From: Ophioderma brevispina
Taxonomy: Eukaryota > Echinodermata > Ophiuroidea > Amphilepidida > Ophiodermatidae
Length of the DNA stretch: 64,000 nt
Reading direction: 5' to 3'
Assembly: GCA_023653785.1 (NCBI GenBank)
Contig: JAMKCH010078560.1
Coordinates: forward strand, 59,996-123,995
The notes beneath the pieces were generated by a model. That model ran no database searches. It saw nothing but the letters and a program-made list of their open reading frames with translations, and was not told the origin of the DNA. This document shows, piece after piece, positions 1,947-62,968 of this stretch (the stretch's first letter is position 1; the number at the start of each line of letters is the position of its first letter). The position numbers were made by a program, and so were the translations under genes.

Positions 1947-3578
1947 TTAAGAAATATTTGATTTCATGGTTTTGGTGTTTGTTTCCGTTTTATAGGTCAT
2001 TCAGGAGGTATGTCACTTCTGCTTATAGTGACAAAAAGTACTTAAATTAATGAACAGAACTCATCCCAGTCTTGCATTGTAGTTACTTTTTGTTACTAAA
2101 ATCTTGCAATTTGTGACAACCAGTGCAAATATTGTATTGGAAGAAATGCATCATGGGAAGAACGCTTTTCCTCCTCTTGTTTATGCCGATGATTTCATGC
2201 GAAGTACAAAATGTGAGGGGAAAAATAGACCACCTTCCCATAAGGCTTGGTTCAAGTTTGTTCACTTAATGGTGTAGCTTTTCTCAATAGTCTGAAATAC
2301 CATGTTATCAATAGTCTAAAATACAATGGCAAAGTTTCCATCTGGAAAGTGTTATTTTGGATCTTAACTTGTAAACATGGTAATTTTGCATGAGCTTAAT
2401 TTGGTCATAAGTTATGGATTTTTAAACACATTTGCTTGTTTCTATATTCACTAAATGTGTTTTGAGGTCAATACACTAAGTCAGGGTTTTCATGCTTTGT
2501 CTAATTTGTACTTGCTTCTAATAATGAGAGTTTGAGAAATGTGAAAATTAATGTATAGCAAAATATTCCACATTTATACTATAAATTGGTCATCTTTTTT
2601 GCCTCTGTGGTAGTAATGAGTTAGGGTGATAATTAACATGATTAACTTCCAAAATTATTTCATACTCATTAAGGCAATCTGAGTACAAGTACTTTAATTG
2701 GTTGATTTTGTGGCTTCTTCCTACGTTTTTTGTTTGTTTGCATTTCGTTTTGTTTGGTTGTGGTTTTAGTCAACACTATTTTGTGACCCAATCAACTCAA
2801 ATTGGGCCAACGTCAGAAAATGTTAAATTCTAAATTTAGATTGTATCAGACCCCCAATCCACCAAAATTCCCTCATGCTCAACAATGCTCAAGCAATGTC
2901 GAATGTGACCGTGCCACAATAACAAGTTTCACCAAGCCCAAAAATTAACAGTTAAAACTCCCCATCACATGCTAGTCATGAGTCAGTCGGGGAAATTTCA
3001 CCAAACAATATTTGGGCTTTCTCTGCACGATTTCACAATCAGTGCACATCATCATAATAATAATGGTAGTCCTCCGCCAAATACCACCGCGTTGACTACG
3101 CATACTGACGGGCCAAAGAATAAAAGACATTCCCAATCTCTCTCATTTTTTGATTGGTGCACACTTCCTGCTCCATGAATTCCGCACGGCTGTGTACTTT
3201 TTTCTATATTTGGAGGTTCACTATATATTATCATTGTCAATGGCACAGTTCTTTGACCTTAATATTGTAGTGTCATTAAATATTGACCATTGGGGTATGA
3301 TGTTTACTACCATGAGTAGTGAAGGTGAAGTTTGTAGGAGATGATATGAAACTGTGTTCTCTTCTTTGGTGGATCTGATCACTTTAGCAAAATTACAGTG
3401 CTATGAAATGTGTGATATGTTGTCATATAATATCCACCAGGGAAGTCCATACATCACAAATTTGGGCTGATTGATTTATTAATTTGATTGATTGGCATCT
3501 AATTGTTTTATGGCTCAATGAAGTTAGTATCCTGGCATGGTTGATAATGATAATGATGATAGCTCAATAGTATTTGAG

Positions 3579-3814
3579 TGCTAGAAGGTCGGAAGTGCAA
3601 TGGCTGCCATTTGACCAATTCCCATCAAACAACTATTATGCCAAGTCTTTGGTCCAGTGCTCTTTAAATGCCTTGAAAAGGGTTTTTCAGGTACACAGTC
3701 ACCTGAAAAACCAATTTCAAGAGCACTGACTCAAGGAAAGCAAACTGAGTTATTTTATTACATGGCACACAGATGTATCATATGGCAGCTATTTGCACTG
3801 ATGATCCTTCTGCA
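3579..3814. mobile_element. Palindromic foldback MITE, copy 1
   Basis: This element of about 236 bp is an almost complete palindrome. Its ends are TGCTAGAAGGTCGGAAGTGC and the complement ending CCTTCTGCA; its centre is a TTTTTCAGG...CCTGAAAAA hairpin. It is clearly homologous to 53809-54041, with matching termini, arms and centre. No coding capacity. Confidence 0.75.
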
Positions 3815-3985
3815 CTTATACAAAGATTTTGATATTGGCACAGGAAGTTCTCTTTGACACACTGTATGTAACCGTCAGTAACTGTCTACCACATTCAGTG
3901 TGCTTTACAGATGTTGTTACAAAATTTGAAGGTGTGCTTGCAGGAGAGAAGCAATGTTTAATCCTTAGCATGCTGAGTGGTTGTA

Positions 3986-5055
3986 CCGGCTGTCCCAAAA
4001 AAATGTTAACACTCTAGACACAGCCATTTTGTAAAGACTAAAAGTACACAGGGAACTTTGTTTGGTATGCTCTTAAAACAACTAATAAGCTTTTATTTGC
4101 CGTTTATTTTCATTTCATCTATATGTAGAACAAAAGATATGCTTGGTCAAAAAGTAGAGTACAAATTCGGATTGGTCGGATTTGGCAATGGTTACATCTG
4201 TAAGATTGTGAAACGTGATTTTGTAACATACTCAAAATTGGGGTTTGATTGTGGTTATTGATTGGCATTGAGCCCCCACCTATTGAAATATTGACAACCC
4301 CTTTTGAACTTCATGGTGATCATTCAATGTGTGAGCATTGTCTTTATGATCATAATACTTTGTATTTTAAATAATTATCAGTCAGTTCACTTTCATAGCA
4401 AGTTAGCCCTATCGGTCAAAATTCCCATGAATGTTAAACTCAACTCAAACTAAACCACAATCATACACTTCCTTTTTTGATTCCCAGAAATCTATGATTC
4501 ATAGGCAAACAAACAACAAAACACTAAAGTAAACAAAAACCAAAAGAAAAGACACTCCTAATAAACCTACATGGACTAATAAAGCAGGCAGAATTCGAAA
4601 TAAAGACACGTGGCAGGTCATACAGATCCACGACACGAAGTGGCACAGAACTCAAGCCACATTTCTCTTGTTAGAAGAGCAGTTGTGGTATATCCAACGA
4701 TGAACGTTTGGTAAAACACGTGGCAGGAATCTCGAAGCTTTCCTTAATAGAAAAACACTACAAAATCTATTTGTGTTCTTTTTTTAAGATGGAAGAAGGT
4801 GTGCTATGAAGCCATGTGTATTCATGCTTGGCAGTCATGCCATTCTCCATTGTTCTAAGGCAATCGGACCAAGCTGATTTTGCCCTCTCATAATATGAAG
4901 CAATCTTTTTTTTCGTATCGGATTGGAATTAAATAAATGCCAACAATTAAGACTTGTTTTAATTGGCTCAAAGAATACCAAACAAGGACCCATTCGTACT
5001 TATCTTGTTATCAAAATCCCTCGTTTCGATGTTAACATTTTTTTGGGACAGCCTG
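3986..5055. mobile_element. TA-flanked transposon remnant, Tc1/mariner-like size
   Basis: TA dinucleotides at 3984-3985 and 5056-5057 flank a 1070-bp segment. The left end reads CCGGCTGTCCCAAAAAAATG and the right end in reverse complement reads CAGGCTGTCCCAAAAAAATG. Similarity continues inward for roughly 100 bp on each side (for example the TTTGGTAT motifs). The TA target and ~1-kb length fit a Tc1/mariner-type element, but no transposase frame or DDD/E signature is visible; the longest frame is about 67 codons. It is either a decayed copy or a non-autonomous derivative. Confidence 0.7.
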
Positions 5056-35751: not shown

Positions 35752-38700
35752 TTATACCCTACTGAGGTGGAGAAAGAAGAATGCCAGAGAGAGTTCATGG
35801 CAGCATTGCAGCTGAAGCCAGTGAAGAGAGTCCAGAAGGTTATCCCTGCAGCAGTCACACCTAGCCCAGGTCTTCTGATGGTTCAAGGAGGTCCTTTGGA
35901 GAGAGGCATCACGGTGCGAGAATTCAACTACAACCAGGCGATGAAAGAAGGATCGGTGGCCAATCCTCTACTGGGTGCTAAAGCTAAAGTGATGGATTTT
36001 GCAGATGTTCAGCAGATTCTGAAGATGACATCAGATTCTGGCAACCCTCTTTCTCTGTTATCTCATCAACCAGGTCAGTCCAAAAGATCACCACTAAAAG
36101 GGTCGACACCAGGAGCCATGCAAGCAGGGGCTATGCCAGGAGAACTTCAATCTGCGCGACTGCCTACTTTACCTCCTGCACCACGAGTAAACCCAGGTTA
36201 CAGAAGCGAACCACTCTCTGGTGATGTTGCCATGGAAATGCATGTTCCTTCAGAGGATGCTAGCAGTCACCAGCTACAGATGACTGCCGATCAGCCAGAA
36301 TTAACAAATGGTATTGAGGATGATTCTTTATCACAACCTGGAAGTGAATCGGATAATGATTCTTTGTATGGGTTTAAGAAATTGAAAGGCAAACACCACA
36401 CATGCAAATACTGTGACAAGACATTCCCATTTGCAAGTACATTGAAGGTCCACATGCGAAGCCATCTTGGGCTTACTCCGTACAAGTGCATGTTGTGCAG
36501 CTATTCTAGTGCCGATAAGAGCACCTTGGTGAGACACATGAGAACACACAGTGGGGAGAGACCGTATGCATGCAAACTTTGTAAATTTCCTTTCACAACA
36601 AAGGCAAACTGTGAGAGACACATCAAGAAACGACACAACAAGGACACCAAGGCGGACATTGAACTTTGCATTGAACACTGCCAGTTTTCCAACACGGGTC
36701 TTGATGGAAAGTTCTGCTCTCCAGATACTGTCTGCAAGATCTGCAACCGAGATTTCAAATTCTTCCGAGATCTTCAAAATCATTTACGGGTCCATGAGCG
36801 CACTCCAGCAAAGCCTTTTGTGTGTCAAAGATGCCAGATGGGGTTCTCTTCACGAGGAAACTGCGCGAGACACATAATCAAGAGCCATCCTGAAGTTGGT
36901 GAAAATAACATTGAGAAAACAATTGTAGTTCATGAAATGGCTTTCTCAGACACGCAGAGTATTACCACCGATGATTCCTCATATCTGGATGATGTGATGA
37001 GCACAGACAGTCCCCAGTCAGAACCGTTGGACTTTAGTATGAAGGGTGTAAATAGTAGATTGGGTAATTCTTATCGCAGCACTGACAGTCCAATGCTGAG
37101 CTTGATTCCAAGTCCCACATCCTCCATCAGCTCATTCAATTTTGATGGGCCAATAGATCTCAGCATGCCAAAACCAGGTAGCGTCGTGGGGAAGCTTCGC
37201 TTCAAAAGAGTGTACCATAAATTTTACAGTAGATTAGTTGATGCTCTTGTGTGTCCCCACTGTTCCCAGGCATTTGCTCATGGCAGCTTGTTCAAACAGC
37301 ATATCCGCTCACATACAATGGAAAGACCACACCGGTGTTATTTCTGTGCAGCTGCTTTCACGATGAAAGAAAATCTCGATAAACACATTGAAAAGCGCCA
37401 CTCCATCAGCACAGTGACAGACAGACCAGCGCAGGCATTCATTCCTAAGATTGCTACACCCATGCAGTTCAAGCTGAACGTGGCTCGTACAAACCAAGTA
37501 CGACAACAATCACCATTTGACCAGTCAGAAGGAGCTGCCACACCCCCACCACAACAACCTGAACTATCAGTGGTGACGGACTTGATGACATCACTCCCTC
37601 AGAATCCTCACCAATCTCCCGTCATTGTCAATACCAATTACAACAGTACAGACTCAAGTGTCGAACTATCAAGCATCTCAAAAATACTTGCAAATACTAG
37701 CTCCAGCAACTTCCAAAATTTCTTGACACCTCCATTGATGACCACTAATGCTTCTCCACTGCTAATGACTGCATTGTCAACAAATCCTATAACAGTAAAT
37801 GCAGAGATGATGCCTAAGGAGCTTCGCAATGTCCCTGTGATTGTGAAGCCAGTTGAGCGCAGATCAGGCAACCAGGACATGGTCTTTATAAAACAGGAGC
37901 CACGGAGTGATTCGCCAGCAGTAAATCTAACATCAAGGCCTCAACCAGTTTCTGATATGAACAATTTACCAGAAATTGTAAGAAATGATCAAGTACAGGA
38001 CTCACCTGGTGAGCAGGATCCAACTGAGGAGTCAATTCCTCTGGAGAAAACACCAGCTGGAAAAGAGCTGCTGCGTAAACAAACATGCCCCTATTGCTTC
38101 CGCAAATTTCCTTGGATCAGCTCCTTGAAACGCCACATTCTGACCCACACCGGACTAAAACCATACCAATGTCCGCAGTGCGGATCAAGCTTCTCCACCA
38201 AGTCCAACTGTGAACGCCATATTGTACGCCGCCATTGCGGTGGAAGTAGGGAATCTAGTCGTGACAACAGCCCGGCTGTGACACCAAGTGGAGCGCCACC
38301 ATTGGAACAGCTGTTCATATGCTTGGAGTGCAAAGAGGTAGCATTTTCCACTAAGCGCAAACTAGAGAAACACTACGACACGCACCATCCCACAGAACCA
38401 TTTCCAGAATGCTACAAAGAAGCAACAAAATTAAACCCAGATGGTGCTGTTCAGCAAGTCTCTACTGCATCTGCTTTGGACTTGTCAGTAAAATCTCCTA
38501 TTGCTCCTAGAATGCGCCTACCAAGCTACCATCACCACCAGTCGTCAACTGTTAAGGAAGGTAAGCGACTTCTTAAGAAAGCAGCTGCCGTGAAGATGAA
38601 GAAGAGAGCTCACGAGTATGGTCAAATCCATGAAGATGACATAATCCCCCAGGACCCCAGTTGCCAGTATGAGACCTCTCCTACCAGCAGTTACAGTAAT

Positions 38701-39825
38701 CTTGTAATGAAATTCACCATGAAGCCATCACAGCACTCATGTCACATGTGCTCAAAGCGCTTCAAGAGCAGTACGGCCCTGAAGCGCCATCATAGAGTTC
38801 ACACCCTCGAACATCCATTCCAGTGTCTCAAATGTCAAGCGAGTTTCACCACCAAGTTCAACTGTCAGCGACATATGCAGAAACTTCATGGTATGAGTAA
38901 AGAGGAGGTGGCAGCAGTAAAAGAAGCGGAGGTCAGCAGGGGTCACGACCTTCCGACCATGGTTGCGATACGTGAGCCTGGTCAGCTTCCATTGCAAAGT
39001 GTAGATAGTATTGGACATGGTTTAACAGAAAGTGAAGGTGGTCAGACAAAAGAACAGGTTGAGAGGGAAGATTTTACTAACACAAATGGCGATAGCAGAA
39101 AGTTAACCACTGTAAAAGAGATCCTTGAAGGCCATACAGAATCTACCAGAAGTGCACCTCCAGACAGTTTAAAAGAAACCCACCTTAACCTCACCAAGTC
39201 AGCTGATAATGATACCTCAAAGAGTGAGATGGTCTCCAACATCTCTTCATCTACTCATGAAAATCATGACACTTCCAGTAATTCTCTGACATTGTCAGTA
39301 ACTGTTGAAAGCAAAGACAATGCCACAAAGAAACAGCTGCCTACTGCTGCTGCTATAGAGATGATTGCATCAGAAAGAAGTCAATCAAACAGCCCCCAAT
39401 TACCACCTACCAGTTTAGCAGCTAGGAAAGAAGTTTGCACCACCCCTGTTGGTGATGACGATGAAGAAAATGAAGACATCAAGAAATTCAAAGAACTTGA
39501 TCCCGACATTACTGTGGTGAATCCCAAAACACCTTCAGAAGAAGGTGACGAAGGCAACAACATGACCTGGACTCTCGATTCTAATGTAACCGCATCACCA
39601 GAAAGAAGTACCTACGTGGAGGATCGCTCGATGCTCATGAACCAGAGTCCGGACAATAGCGGTGATGTGTTCTCAACACCAGCAGATGATATGATCTCTT
39701 CAGGGATGGACAACTCAGATATTATCCAGAACTTACTTGGCATTCAAGACTCCTCGGTGATTGATCAGATGTTGGATACTGGTGACTCTTCAACAGCAGC
39801 TAAATTGTTAGGTGTTAGGGAGTGA
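35752..39825 (+). CDS. RREB1: RREB1-like zinc-finger transcription factor, intact 3' part of last exon
   Basis: The frame is open from just after a TGA at 35749 to the TGA at 39823-39825. Numbering residues from 35767, twelve C2H2 fingers begin near 36403, 36484, 36568, 36733, 36823, 37249, 37333, 38083, 38167, 38317, 38737 and 38821. Many second fingers of pairs end in the family-typical N-C-E-R-H. The pair with F-P-W-I-S-S-L-K-R-H and F-S-T-K-S-N-C-E-R-H (38080-38235) is diagnostic of RREB1/Hindsight. CtBP-binding motifs P-L-D-F-S (37024, residue 420) and P-I-D-L-S (37150, residue 462) occur in the same order as in vertebrates, and A-L-D-L-S follows at 38473. I-K-Q-E (37888) is a SUMO consensus. 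The tail (39541-39825) is acidic and finger-free. The known role of the family is nuclear regulation downstream of Ras/MAPK and in epithelia, with CtBP recruitment. The true start lies upstream: GTG at 35767 is not a eukaryotic start. Confidence 0.93.
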   Translation, partial: LYPTEVEKEECQREFMAALQLKPVKRVQKVIPAAVTPSPGLLMVQGGPLERGITVREFNYNQAMKEGSVANPLLGAKAKVMDFADVQQILKMTSDSGNPLSLLSHQPGQSKRSPLKGSTPGAMQAGAMPGELQSARLPTLPPAPRVNPGYRSEPLSGDVAMEMHVPSEDASSHQLQMTADQPELTNGIEDDSLSQPGSESDNDSLYGFKKLKGKHHTCKYCDKTFPFASTLKVHMRSHLGLTPYKCMLCSYSSADKSTLVRHMRTHSGERPYACKLCKFPFTTKANCERHIKKRHNKDTKADIELCIEHCQFSNTGLDGKFCSPDTVCKICNRDFKFFRDLQNHLRVHERTPAKPFVCQRCQMGFSSRGNCARHIIKSHPEVGENNIEKTIVVHEMAFSDTQSITTDDSSYLDDVMSTDSPQSEPLDFSMKGVNSRLGNSYRSTDSPMLSLIPSPTSSISSFNFDGPIDLSMPKPGSVVGKLRFKRVYHKFYSRLVDALVCPHCSQAFAHGSLFKQHIRSHTMERPHRCYFCAAAFTMKENLDKHIEKRHSISTVTDRPAQAFIPKIATPMQFKLNVARTNQVRQQSPFDQSEGAATPPPQQPELSVVTDLMTSLPQNPHQSPVIVNTNYNSTDSSVELSSISKILANTSSSNFQNFLTPPLMTTNASPLLMTALSTNPITVNAEMMPKELRNVPVIVKPVERRSGNQDMVFIKQEPRSDSPAVNLTSRPQPVSDMNNLPEIVRNDQVQDSPGEQDPTEESIPLEKTPAGKELLRKQTCPYCFRKFPWISSLKRHILTHTGLKPYQCPQCGSSFSTKSNCERHIVRRHCGGSRESSRDNSPAVTPSGAPPLEQLFICLECKEVAFSTKRKLEKHYDTHHPTEPFPECYKEATKLNPDGAVQQVSTASALDLSVKSPIAPRMRLPSYHHHQSSTVKEGKRLLKKAAAVKMKKRAHEYGQIHEDDIIPQDPSCQYETSPTSSYSNLVMKFTMKPSQHSCHMCSKRFKSSTALKRHHRVHTLEHPFQCLKCQASFTTKFNCQRHMQKLHGMSKEEVAAVKEAEVSRGHDLPTMVAIREPGQLPLQSVDSIGHGLTESEGGQTKEQVEREDFTNTNGDSRKLTTVKEILEGHTESTRSAPPDSLKETHLNLTKSADNDTSKSEMVSNISSSTHENHDTSSNSLTLSVTVESKDNATKKQLPTAAAIEMIASERSQSNSPQLPPTSLAARKEVCTTPVGDDDEENEDIKKFKELDPDITVVNPKTPSEEGDEGNNMTWTLDSNVTASPERSTYVEDRSMLMNQSPDNSGDVFSTPADDMISSGMDNSDIIQNLLGIQDSSVIDQMLDTGDSSTAAKLLGVRE

Positions 39826-55328: not shown

Positions 55329-56445
55329 TAGTGTCCAACCGATCACCCCAAGTTCTGAATATGCCGATTTCCGATTGATTGCTCTTTTAATCTGCCGATC
55401 CGATCCCGATTTCCGATTTTTAAAAATTGCATTATTCAAGTCTACTACGAAGCCGGAAGCCCATAAAATAACAAAACGCAATCAATAAATCTACCTGTGT
55501 GTTGTGTAGTGTATATACGTATTAACTCACCTTGTTGTTTATTAGATTGAAAAAGTCGGAAATGAGAATTGAGATTCTTATCGTAAACCAAAGTTGAAAT
55601 AGCCGTCCTTAATCCTTGACACATATTCAGAGATAGACCATACAATCTGAGAACACATTTGTAGTGTTCATATTAGCCAGATAAATCTTAATTTACCTTT
55701 ATTTTGTTAAGTATTCCCAGTACTCGAAAGTAATATATTACTGCATATTCCCAAGTCTAATAGCCATTGTACAATTCAAGTGGCATTACTTGCAGTCCAG
55801 CTGAAATCTACAAGATTATGCAAATACCAAGAGTCCCACCAATGTTATTACAACATTCAACATACCACTGCAGGGCACAGCTGTAAGCTTCTAAAGCACG
55901 TATTGGCCATAGAATGCTGTGCATGACTTCTCTGACTATGCCCCGCCCACAACGGGAGGCTTGGCTAATGGGAAAGAAAGAAGTGACCTGATTGTCGGTG
56001 ACTGGGTCACTGACAAGGTGAATAAACCTGGGGAAACACCCATATCACCTAGACACTATACTATGCCCTAAGGGGTGAGTGACTGGCTATGATGTAACTT
56101 TCCCACGCTGTAAATAAGCAAATTAACAGCGCTAATTATGTCAAATACAATGTGTGTTGAAAACATTGAATTTGTACTTGAGTTTGACCATATTGGAGCA
56201 CTAAAGATTTGTGGTTAGAAAATGTAAAGGTTGGGAAAAGTGGATTGCTAACCTATTACGTAAAGTAGGCAAGGTTGAAAGGATTGTGAACCTAAAAATG
56301 AAGCCAGACTATTGCTTTGTCATAATAAGGATTGATCGGTTCATCAGATCGGTAAATGAAGGAAATTTCACCGATGCCGATTCAGATTCGAAAAGCTTAT
56401 TATCGGTCCGATTCGGAAACTACCAATGCGATCGGTTGGACACTA
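55329..56445. mobile_element. Non-autonomous hAT element, 16-bp perfect TIRs and 8-bp TSD
   Basis: The left end TAGTGTCCAACCGATC and right end GATCGGTTGGACACTA are perfect complements, and CTTGTCTT flanks both sides (55321-55328 and 56446-56453). Subterminal CCGAT/ATCGG motifs cluster inside both ends, typical of hAT transposase-binding repeats. The 1117 bp contains no transposase frame. A second copy of the right-hand 830 bp, with end and TSD, occurs at 56850-57689 within the duplicated block. Confidence 0.9.
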
Positions 56446-56710
56446 CTTGTCTTGTACTCTTTTGTCCTTATGAATAATTAATAGTTGTAGAAAATGGGAA
56501 ATGTGTTTGTTAGAACTCAGAATATAAATATTAAAATAAGTCTGTAAAAGTTTTTTAGCTTGAAAGTGGATGACCCGATCATGCTCCAATTTTGCATGTG
56601 ATATTTTCTTCCTCACATGGAACTCATTTAAAATTTTGAGTTAATCAGTCTAGCCATTTGCATAGTAGTAGAAAAGATGTATACTAAATTGGCACATAGG
56701 AAAGTGTGTA
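55615..56710 (+). repeat. Duplicated block A, copy 1
   Basis: About 1.1 kb nearly identical to 56850-57938, with scattered substitutions and small indels of the kind seen between alleles. It starts inside the hAT element and runs past its right end. Sequence after 56710 diverges from sequence after 57938. Confidence 0.9.
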
Positions 56711-56829: not shown

Positions 56830-56849
56830 TTTTTTTTTTTTTTTTTTTT
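56830..56849 (+). other. 20-T run at a duplication junction (1 of 4)
   Basis: Exactly 20 T. Immediately after it the sequence restarts as a copy of 55615 onward. Likely join padding or a gap placeholder. Confidence 0.65.
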
Positions 56850-57938: not shown

Positions 57939-58305
57939 TTTATTAAAGTGGAGATGTTTGTGTTCATAACATTAAAAGGAAACATTTCCTGGACCTTAAA
58001 TTTCACCGGGTTAATGACAAAATATAAACTCACTTCTGACACCAAAATCTCTATTTTGATGGAGTAAAGCATGGGAATGAGGTTGCTGATCGGGTTGCTG
58101 ATGTTGTAGCATAGAAAAGGGAAAAGAAAAGAAAATACAGGTTTGGCCCTTTCTCTCACAGATTGGATCTTAATTTTTATTTCCAATCATGTCTAAATGA
58201 AGGATGATTTTGCTGCGATTCATTTGGCAAAACAGAAAAATAATGCTGCATTTGTTTGGAATCCAGATTAGTTTTATAGTGGGTGAATATATGTGAAATA
58301 TTTAA

Positions 58306-58880
58306 AGGGATTAGCAGCGATAATGCGAGAGAATCCAAAAAATGTGGAAATGCATGTTTTTAACTTATAAATCAGGGATAAGTGTGTACAATTCCATATA
58401 ACTGCTTTAATGTACAAACAAACCACCAAATAGTAAAAAAAAAGAAGTATTTGAAGAAATTTGTCATACCGTCTCCCGCAAATAGACATACAGCGACGGT
58501 GTCTCAAAATCTGCACTAAACAGCTGATTGTGGTTTACACCAGTACAGAATGAACAAAGATCAACAATGTTTGTGTTTGAGGTCAAACTGTATCGATCAT
58601 GGTGCACAATATCACGCTGAAAATCTGTGATATTCACTGAGAGGCTTTTTTGATCACAAGTCGGAATTTTGATACGCATGTATAGAAATTACAGAATCAG
58701 ATAAAAGGTACTGCCTTGCCTTTAATACATGGATTTCAAGCCAACCATTTGCAGGTTATGTTCACATATCCATGCCAGTAACATTTTTTTTTTTTTTTTT
58801 TTTCCAGTAACAAAAATATAAAAATATGAATTTTGATGATTTTTTCGATGTTTCGGATTAGCAAATCGCTGCTAATCCCT
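58306..58880. mobile_element. TTAA-flanked MITE, AGGGATTAGCAGCGA family
   Basis: TTAA at 58302-58305 and 58881-58884 bracket perfect 15-bp ends AGGGATTAGCAGCGA and TCGCTGCTAATCCCT. The 575 bp includes the 20-T run at 58784, which may inflate the length. No coding capacity. Confidence 0.85.
58784..58803 (+). other. 20-T run at a duplication junction (2 of 4)
   Basis: Exactly 20 T, flanked on both sides by CCAGTAACA, a 9-bp overlap. Confidence 0.6.
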
Positions 58881-59470
58881 TTAAGTGTGCACTTCTGAAA
58901 ATGGCAATTTGTATTAGGTTTTTTTGAGTATGTTGATTTTGTTAATTGCGGCACTGAAATGGTTCCCCAGGAGTGGATAATGAAGTTTGTATAGGGGTTA
59001 AATATCAAATTGATTGCATTGTCTTAAAAACCCTACCAATGCATTCCGTTAGCCATAAGGATTCAGAAAAGTGTGTTTGTCCAAACTAAGCCATTTTTTA
59101 AAAAGTTATTAACAAAAAGGTCAAAGGTAAAATTTGAAGCCCACAGGGGTAAAAAGGTCAAAAATACAAGTGATCTCAAAATGACCATCTTGATAAAGCA
59201 AACTATACCTTATCTGAATTCCTATCGCTAGAGGAATGCATTAGTACGATTTTTAACACAATGCGCTTCAATTTAACATTTGACCCCTGCACAAACTTCA
59301 ATGACCCCTTTCTGCAGGAACTATTAGAGTGATCTTATCTTAAAAAATCTGAACATGGTGATAAAATCTTTAAAAATGGTGTGAAAATGACCAAAATGAC
59401 CCCAAAATGGGCTGAATATAAAAATAAAATTGTGTGAATTTTGGCAACAAATAAAATCTGAATTGATTTT

Positions 59471-59652
59471 TACGCAACAAAAAAAAAATCGGAATTCAGA
59501 TTTTAATCTGAATATGACCATGCCTGCATTGCGATTTCCACCATTTTTGAAATCAGCATACTCAAAAACTCCCTTGTACATATTGCCATGTTTCCTTCAA
59601 GAGGTGCACCCCCTAACACATATCTGCCCTGCTATTAAGTAATAAATTAAAC
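59471..59652 (+). repeat. Duplicated block B, copy 1
   Basis: Near-identical to 60397-60570, starting at the same A10 run and running through CTGCTATTAAGTAATAAATT. The sequences after the two copies differ. Confidence 0.9.
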
Positions 59653-60376: not shown

Positions 60377-60396
60377 TTTTTTTTTTTTTTTTTTTT
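60377..60396 (+). other. 20-T run at a duplication junction (3 of 4)
   Basis: Exactly 20 T, followed directly by the second copy of block B beginning at its A10 run. Confidence 0.65.
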
Positions 60397-61106: not shown

Positions 61107-61372
61107 ACACCAATGTAATACATTCCTGTATTCCTTGCATCATTAATTGTTATACGCTGATGAGCTGTTATTTGGCGCTACATGCGCTCATCGACATGCA
61201 CATAATACTTCCCACATTCCATAGTGTGTAACACTACCTAGGATATATTACATTGGTCATCAGTATCATTATTATGATTATTACCCCCAGTTCCTACCAT
61301 GGAGTGTTAAAGATGATTGGTTTTATATCCCAAAGGATAAATTTGTTACCTGGCTGCTTGCAGTGTTCTTAA
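61107..61372 (+). repeat. Duplicated block C, copy 1 (left flank of the 623-bp insertion)
   Basis: Matches 62237-62501 base for base except for rare substitutions, such as GTTAAAG for GTTGAAG. It ends with the TTAA where the 623-bp element is inserted. Confidence 0.9.
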
Positions 61373-61995
61373 AGGAAATATGTCAAGATTCTGAATATTT
61401 GGAAAATTTGGTATGGATGGAAAGCTTAAGTAACGTAGATTACATATGAATCAAAATAAGTTGAAAATTGTCCACATTTGTTGAGTATTTTGCCCTTTTA
61501 ATTTTCCGCCAATAGCTTACTCGAAAACGATTCCGACAAATCCACATCGCAGGCAAATGGTGACGTCAAAGTGATGACCATCCATAATTTACGTCGTTGT
61601 GACCATCATATCGCAGTGTTGCCACTTCAATAATAATTAAAACACAACGAAATGAAACAAAATATGTCATTCTGTAACTTATTTTCAAATTTTATTATTA
61701 CTTTCATTAATCCATCAATATTACAGTGTCAGCAATAACAATTCGAGTCAACACGATGTTTTGGTCATCACTTTGACGTCACGAGGAGAGCAAAATTGGG
61801 CGCTTTTGATCAATGAAGCCGTGGCGAAAAATCCGCCCGTTTTCTTCGTATGTCAAAAAAGCAAAAATTAAAATGCCTCTATTTTGTTAATTTTACATCA
61901 AATTGTATTATTTTTTCGGGAATTCGTGATGTATGTACATATATTTTATGAATGTAAGTCAAACTGAGCTTGACAAAAATCTTGACATATTTCCT
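61373..61995. mobile_element. TTAA-flanked element with perfect 18-bp TIRs and an empty-site allele
   Basis: AGGAAATATGTCAAGATT at 61373-61390 is the exact complement of 61978-61995, with TTAA on both sides (61369-61372, 61996-61999). The second copy of the flanks reads straight through TTAAAGGCCGACTC at 62498 with no insert and a single TTAA, which shows a precise insertion or excision. Inside, TGACGTCAAAGTGATGACCA (61560) and TGGTCATCACTTTGACGTCA (61760) form an inner inverted repeat. 623 bp, no transposase. Confidence 0.92.
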
Positions 61996-61999
61996 TTAA

Positions 62000-62216
62000 A
62001 GGCCGACTCAGCGATTTCCAACATATCATTTTTTTTGCATATACATAATGTTTGTCTGCATACTAATCAAAGTGTGAAATAGCCAAGCTCAAATCGATGT
62101 CCTTCACAGAAAATCATGACTTTGTTATAAAATTCCGGATCCAGAATTTTGGTTATACACAGTATAAATTGGTTATACACAGTATAAATCCTCACACAGC
62201 CGTGTTGCTGTGAATG
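62000..62216 (+). repeat. Duplicated block C, copy 1, right part
   Basis: Matches 62502-62719. It is the left part of the TTAA element described at 62502-62964 and is cut off by the fourth 20-T run. Confidence 0.85.
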
Positions 62217-62236
62217 TTTTTTTTTTTTTTTTTTTT
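62217..62236 (+). other. 20-T run at a duplication junction (4 of 4)
   Basis: Exactly 20 T, followed directly by a copy of 61107 onward. Confidence 0.65.
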
Positions 62237-62501
62237 CACCAATGTAATACATTCCTGTATTCCTTGCATCATTAATTGTTATACGCTGATGAGCTGTTAT
62301 TTGGCGCTACATGCGCTCATCGACATGCACATAATACTTCCCACATTCCATAGTGTGTAACACTACCTAGGATATATTACATTGGTCATCAGTATCATTA
62401 TTATGATTATTACCCCCAGTTCCTACCATGGAGTGTTGAAGATGATTGGTTTTATATCCCAAAGGATAAATTTGTTACCTGGCTGCTTGCAGTGTTCTTA
62501 A
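62237..62501 (+). repeat. Duplicated block C, copy 2 (empty site)
   Basis: Copy of 61107-61372 that continues directly into the next element at 62502 without the 623-bp insertion. Confidence 0.9.
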
Positions 62502-62964
62502 AGGCCGACTCAGCGATTTCCAACATATCATTTTTTTTGCATATACATAATGTTTGTCCGCATACTAATCAAAGTGTGAAATAGCCAAGCTCAAATCGAT
62601 GTCCTTCACAGAAAATCATGACTTTGTTATAAAATTCCGGATCCAGAATTTTGGTTATACACAGTATAAATTGGTTATACACAGTATAAATCCTCACACA
62701 GCCGTGTTGCTGTGAATGTGAGGTGAATCCGGCCACCCCCGTTAGCGGGGACAAAACCGGATTTAAAACTTTGGTTTTACTACTACTACTACAGTATCCT
62801 ATGGTACTGTAATACTACACATAAGAGCTTACTGCATCAAAATGGAAAATCTGATTCATCTCAAACTGGAATTTAGCATTTTAGGAGACTATCTTTAGTT
62901 CTAGTTCACAATTTGCAATTCATTTTAAAAAACAATATATATTGCATAATCTCCGAGTCAGCCT
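62502..62964. mobile_element. TTAA-flanked MITE, AGGCYGACTCRG ends
   Basis: TTAA at 62498-62501 and 62965-62968. The left end is AGGCCGACTCAGCGATT and the complement of the right end AGGCTGACTCGGAGATT (14 of 17). 463 bp, non-coding, with a direct TTGGTTATACACAGTATAAA duplication inside. The 623-bp element in the other copy used this element's own left TTAA as target. Confidence 0.75.
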
Positions 62965-62968
62965 TTAA

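Follow-up and report, generated by a model that had tools for sequence, protein, structure and literature searches.

In a stretch of 64,000 nucleotides from the brittle star Ophioderma brevispina (the window, from contig JAMKCH010078560.1), a TTAA-bounded element of 623 bp stands close to a second version of its own flanks from which it is missing. Two questions follow from this arrangement: to what kind of transposon the element belongs, and whether the filled and empty sites are two alleles of one locus or two loci lying side by side. The reading that I favour, with a probability of about 0.83, is that the element is a young member of an abundant, non-autonomous MITE family of the T2 type, moved most likely by a Kolobok transposase, and that its site is both filled and empty in the sequenced animal or pool, the two haplotypes having been laid in a row in the assembly with a 20-base filler between them.

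The element and its empty site

The element, a candidate non-autonomous TTAA transposon of T2/Kolobok type, spans positions 61373–61995 of the window on the forward strand, and is bordered by the target-site duplication TTAA at 61369–61372 and 61996–61999. Its left terminal inverted repeat, AGGAAATATGTCAAGATT (18 bp, 61373–61390, forward strand), recurs as an exact reverse complement in the right terminal repeat (18 bp, 61978–61995, reverse strand). When the window was scanned for pairs of TTAA separated by up to 2.5 kb, this was the only one with an 18/18 match between its ends, and the best value per sequence in 30 dinucleotide shuffles was 12–14/18. The perfect 18-bp repeats and the TTAA duplication described in an earlier note on this DNA, made from the sequence alone, are therefore present as claimed. 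Within the element lies a further inverted repeat, also perfect, with arms of 21 bp at 61560–61580 (forward strand) and 61762–61782 (reverse strand). The longest stop-free stretch is 71 codons, and the element has the traits of a MITE in being short, non-coding, high in copy number and homogeneous among its copies.

The flanks do recur without the element and with a single TTAA (62498–62501), as the same note had stated. When the element and one TTAA are removed from the filled block (61108–62216, forward strand), the remainder aligns to the empty block (62237–62718, forward strand) over 482 bp with two mismatches, A at 61309 against G at 62438, and T at 62057 against C at 62559. Exactly 20 T (62217–62236), on which the note is silent, part one block from the other. 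The two blocks are probably alleles; the filled block would be a left contig end that carries haplotype 1, the empty block the start of the contig to its right, carrying haplotype 2, and the run of T a putative contig join of fixed length.

On its left, another repeat with AGG ends, at 62502–62964 (site 62498–62968), seems to be bordered by the very TTAA that is the target of the element. The ends of this repeat match at 14 of 18 positions, a value that was reached in 4 of the 30 shuffles as well. Parts of it match several of the loci that were fetched, and the family copy in one of these, L030, adjoins a similar end.

Runs of exactly 20 T and the order of the two blocks

The window contains four runs of exactly 20 T, at 56830–56849, 58784–58803, 60377–60396 and 62217–62236, and only two other T runs in it reach 13 bases or more, with lengths of 13 and 42. 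A single exact 20-T run is found in the 258,357 bases of the other loci (L009–L068 without L048), at 3260–3279 of L062. After each of the five, sequence already present upstream of the run restarts, in a check confined to runs of 19–21 bases. At the first join, 55615–56710 is repeated from 56850 with 98.45% identity, at the third, 59479–59651 is repeated from 60397 with 100% identity, and at the fourth, the sequence from 61108 onward is repeated from 62237. The repeat from 58804, at the second join, spans 9 bp, and this overlap is weak evidence when taken alone. At 62217 the overlap is strictly dovetailed and ends precisely where the dovetail of two contigs would. At 56830 and 60377 there is no clean dovetail, the left side ending in 119 and 725 bp respectively that are absent on the right; these ends are presumably allele-specific sequence.

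L062 presents a filled and an empty site once more. The left side of its join has an empty TTAA (2850–2853), and on the right side the same site is filled (3405–3954) by a shorter member of the family, of about 550 bp. The overlap otherwise agrees save for two substitutions and two indels, and the join is a dovetail. Among the other loci, a run of 19–21 bases occurs once more, as 21 A in L052, and here too upstream sequence restarts after it. A pair resembling filled and empty sites lies across it, at 2092–4190 of L052, but with flanks about 92% identical and without a clean dovetail, and the copy is older, at 88% identity to that of the window. The L052 pair may be a genuine duplication, and true duplications containing the element family may accordingly exist.

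It is on account of the exact 20-T joins and the dovetail overlaps that the window pair is read here as haplotypes and not as a tandem duplication. Most likely the 20 T are a gap filler of fixed length, and the pairs in the window and in L062 are in each case two haplotypes laid in a row. Had about 0.5 kb first been duplicated in tandem, with the element then gained (or lost) in one of the copies, both blocks would belong to one chromosome, and the assembly does place them in tandem on one contig, with L052 perhaps an older instance of just such an event. However, the blocks meet at a run of exactly 20 T, a feature with four instances in the window and one in the 258 kb of other loci, each ahead of a restart; the overlap at 62217 stops at the dovetail point; and L062 shows the same arrangement with the same family. 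A tandem duplication is thus rejected as the main reading, and I consider it quite improbable. The earlier note had left open either recent activity or an allelic polymorphism caught by the assembly, and the joins, the dovetail and the L062 pair give the second option the better support.

If the blocks are alleles, the empty one could still have arisen by precise excision, with one TTAA restored. TTAA elements such as piggyBac are known to excise without leaving a footprint (PMC7351741), and the two haplotypes are close relatives, with 2 SNPs in 482 bp. Set against this, it is simpler to take the empty site as ancestral, and at two substitutions from its consensus the copy is young. Nothing in the data separates an insertion from an excision history, but I regard excision as rather unlikely, and the empty allele as probably ancestral.

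With filled and empty sites at two loci, the window and L062, the evidence points to a TTAA MITE family that is segregating in a brittle star. There is also a practical side to the joins. Since an exact 20-T run apparently marks the overlap of unmerged haplotypes, apparent tandem duplications that lie beside such runs in this assembly should not be trusted.

A second TTAA element in the window, at 58302–58884, has AGGGATTAGCAGCGAT ends that match over 16 of 18 bp, and is broken by the 20-T join at 58784.

A dispersed family of near-identical copies

The whole-genome search with 61373–61995 that the earlier note proposed was carried out on 2,514,598,782 bases in 65,844 contigs. TTAA followed by the exact 18-bp end occurs 1149 times (552 + 597), while the reversed control gives 0. 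With the complete element as query there were 1456 candidates, the best 40 of which were scored, all at 96–100% and on 40 different contigs. TTAA stands on both sides in 31 of these copies and on one side in the other 9, and no two of the 40 are similar in their 30-bp flanks. The mean pairwise difference is 2.5%, among copies that are the best-scoring ones and hence biased toward the young. Compared with the consensus of the 40 copies, the window copy shows two substitutions and one 1-bp deletion, which supports the claim of a TTAA transposon with recent activity; only one of the 40 copies (L010) has fewer substitutions, and one (L009) has an equal number. At 61386 the window copy has A, a base found in 6 of the 40 copies, where the left end of the consensus has T, so that the perfect 18-bp repeat is common to just 5 of the 39 other copies. 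Both arms of the 21-bp inner repeat are matched exactly in 33 of the 40 (L009–L048), and the remaining 7 have a match to one arm, or a changed arm.

Twenty more loci, corresponding to the first unread entries in the list of 1149 exact ends, all contain the family, in pieces 86–100% identical to the window copy. The family is one that has been active over a long period and until recently.

Variants that have both ends in common measure 623, 655 (L065 and L068), 785 (L066) and 1091 bp (L049). The two of 655 bp have about 32 bp extra near position 255, and L068 matches the window copy without a difference over its right 369 bp. The interior of L049 has 4690 candidate places in the genome, of which 40 were scored, at 84–100%. 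An older element of roughly 1.1 kb seems to have given rise to the short forms by shortening, the direction of change being inferred. The earlier note had also envisaged a longer autonomous relative with the same 18-bp ends: longer relatives were found, namely L049 and L066, but no autonomous copy with these ends was identified in the loci read. L063, which spans 3.3 kb and is one of the 20 loci selected through their right end, was considered as such a relative and rejected, as its extra sequence is mostly a separate dispersed repeat with a sharp start, nested in an L049-like copy, and has no transposase of the family as far as seen. This dispersed repeat, at 4345–6611 of L063 and inside an old family copy, is at least 2 kb long, and as a query it gave 6481 candidate places.

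Probable assignment to the T2 MITEs and Kolobok

The window copy has ends of the form AGGAA...TTCCT, and both ends of the consensus do likewise. They therefore agree with the AGGRR of T2 elements and with the RR...YY of Kolobok, and the TTAA duplication common to both is seen in the window copy, against its empty site, and on both sides of 31 of the 40 copies. In Xenopus, T2 MITEs are recognised by a TTAA target together with AGGRR ends; they are placed in Kolobok, and insertion polymorphism within species has been reported for them (PMC6004289). Kolobok termini are given as 5'-RR and YY-3', unlike those of piggyBac (PMC9587614). The statement of the earlier note that no named family has these ends hence fails at the level of kind, for TTAA with AGGRR has been published as the signature of T2 MITEs, which are attributed to Kolobok (PMC6004289, PMC9587614). 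Judged by its ends and target alone, the family most likely belongs to Kolobok.

The resemblance to the Xenopus T2 MITEs extends to short length, high copy number, young members and insertion polymorphism, whereas the host and the sequence inside the AGG end are different, and the likeness is one of published description and not of alignment (PMC6004289). Kolobok elements, including the XKol of Xenopus, share the TTAA duplication and the RR...YY termini, and several XKol ends begin with AGGA (PMC6004289, Table 5; PMC9587614); unlike the 623-bp element, with no reading frame above 71 codons, they are described as encoding a transposase. In corals, the CMITEs are likewise TTAA MITEs whose alleles with and without the element occur in sequence data, but they are about 100 bp long and have piggyBac-type CC[C/T]T ends (PMC2872659). 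As far as these descriptions go, the element clearly exemplifies a kind already known, and both that kind and its insertion polymorphism have been described from Xenopus.

Among the TTAA elements described, the solo long terminal direct repeats (LTDRs) of the KolobokP composites come close to the element, and it might be one of these and not a simple MITE. Such repeats measure about 450 or 660 bp, with inverted ends of their own of up to 18 bp and RR...YY termini, and they are recorded from three echinoderm classes and found alone (PMC9587614); variants of 655–664 bp are present in the family studied here. The paired direct-repeat arrangement of KolobokP, however, was not seen. The 40 scored copies are on 40 different contigs, and a second direct copy was present in 0 of 20 loci of 5.7–8 kb, where a partner 3.4–4 kb away could lie outside some of the stretches. 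This is a partial test, and autonomous copies are perhaps rare or partly outside the stretches read; I regard the KolobokP solo repeat as very unlikely and have set it aside. A piggyBac MITE would have the TTAA duplication too, but its ends would be expected to show the CC[C/T]T motif (PMC2872659) where those of the element start with AGG, and the Kolobok termini that the element does show are distinguished from those of piggyBac (PMC9587614). This assignment is highly improbable, and was rejected on the end motif.

A literature search on Kolobok, on TTAA and AGG-ended elements, on T2 MITEs, and on echinoderm and Ophiothrix spiculata transposons showed, among the papers listed, no title or opening of an abstract that describes the family, Repbase lying outside this search. 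A single full-text search gave no paper that combines 'brittle star' with 'Kolobok'.

Movement and target preference

The ends, the TTAA duplication and the precise empty sites suggest, from anatomy, that a cut-and-paste transposase acts on the MITE in trans. This would be a Kolobok transposase encoded elsewhere (PF20700 is, I presume, the domain that covers Kolobok), which would recognise the AGGAAATATGTCAWGATT ends and cut the element out. Insertion would duplicate the TTAA in which it takes place, preferably one within CTTAAG. In the sequenced animal (or pool) the site would be both filled and empty, and the assembler would have left the haplotypes unmerged, placing their contig ends one after the other, overlap included, and joining them by 20 bases of filler written as T.

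The preference for CTTAAG as a target follows from an excess of outward G: the first base outside the TTAA is G on 45 of 106 sides (60 copies), compared with 16% of the 4816 sides that served as background (p = 1e-10). Insertions next to other AGG ends show only a weak excess, at 5 of 106 sides with 1.8 expected (p = 0.03). Only tentatively can it be proposed that this Kolobok-type MITE family is still mobile in a brittle star living today, and that its extended CTTAAG preference also makes the TTAA at the edges of other elements with AGG ends a favoured place of insertion. If this were true, elements with AGG ends would accumulate in end-to-end series, and the window copy does stand exactly at a TTAA that seemingly borders the repeat at 62502–62964. 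The CTTAAG preference and the repeated filled and empty pairs are modestly useful additions.

Other features of the window

A TTAA pair at 1210–1564, with ends AACTGATCATCAACACAC that match at 17 of 18 positions, is possibly another TTAA element. At 35767–39825, an open frame of 1352 codons encodes a C2H2 zinc-finger protein resembling RREB1. For its residues 500–800 the top match is at 72%, and the best named match, which points to a probable ophiuroid host, is from Amphiura filiformis at 68%, with sea stars and sea urchins ranking lower.
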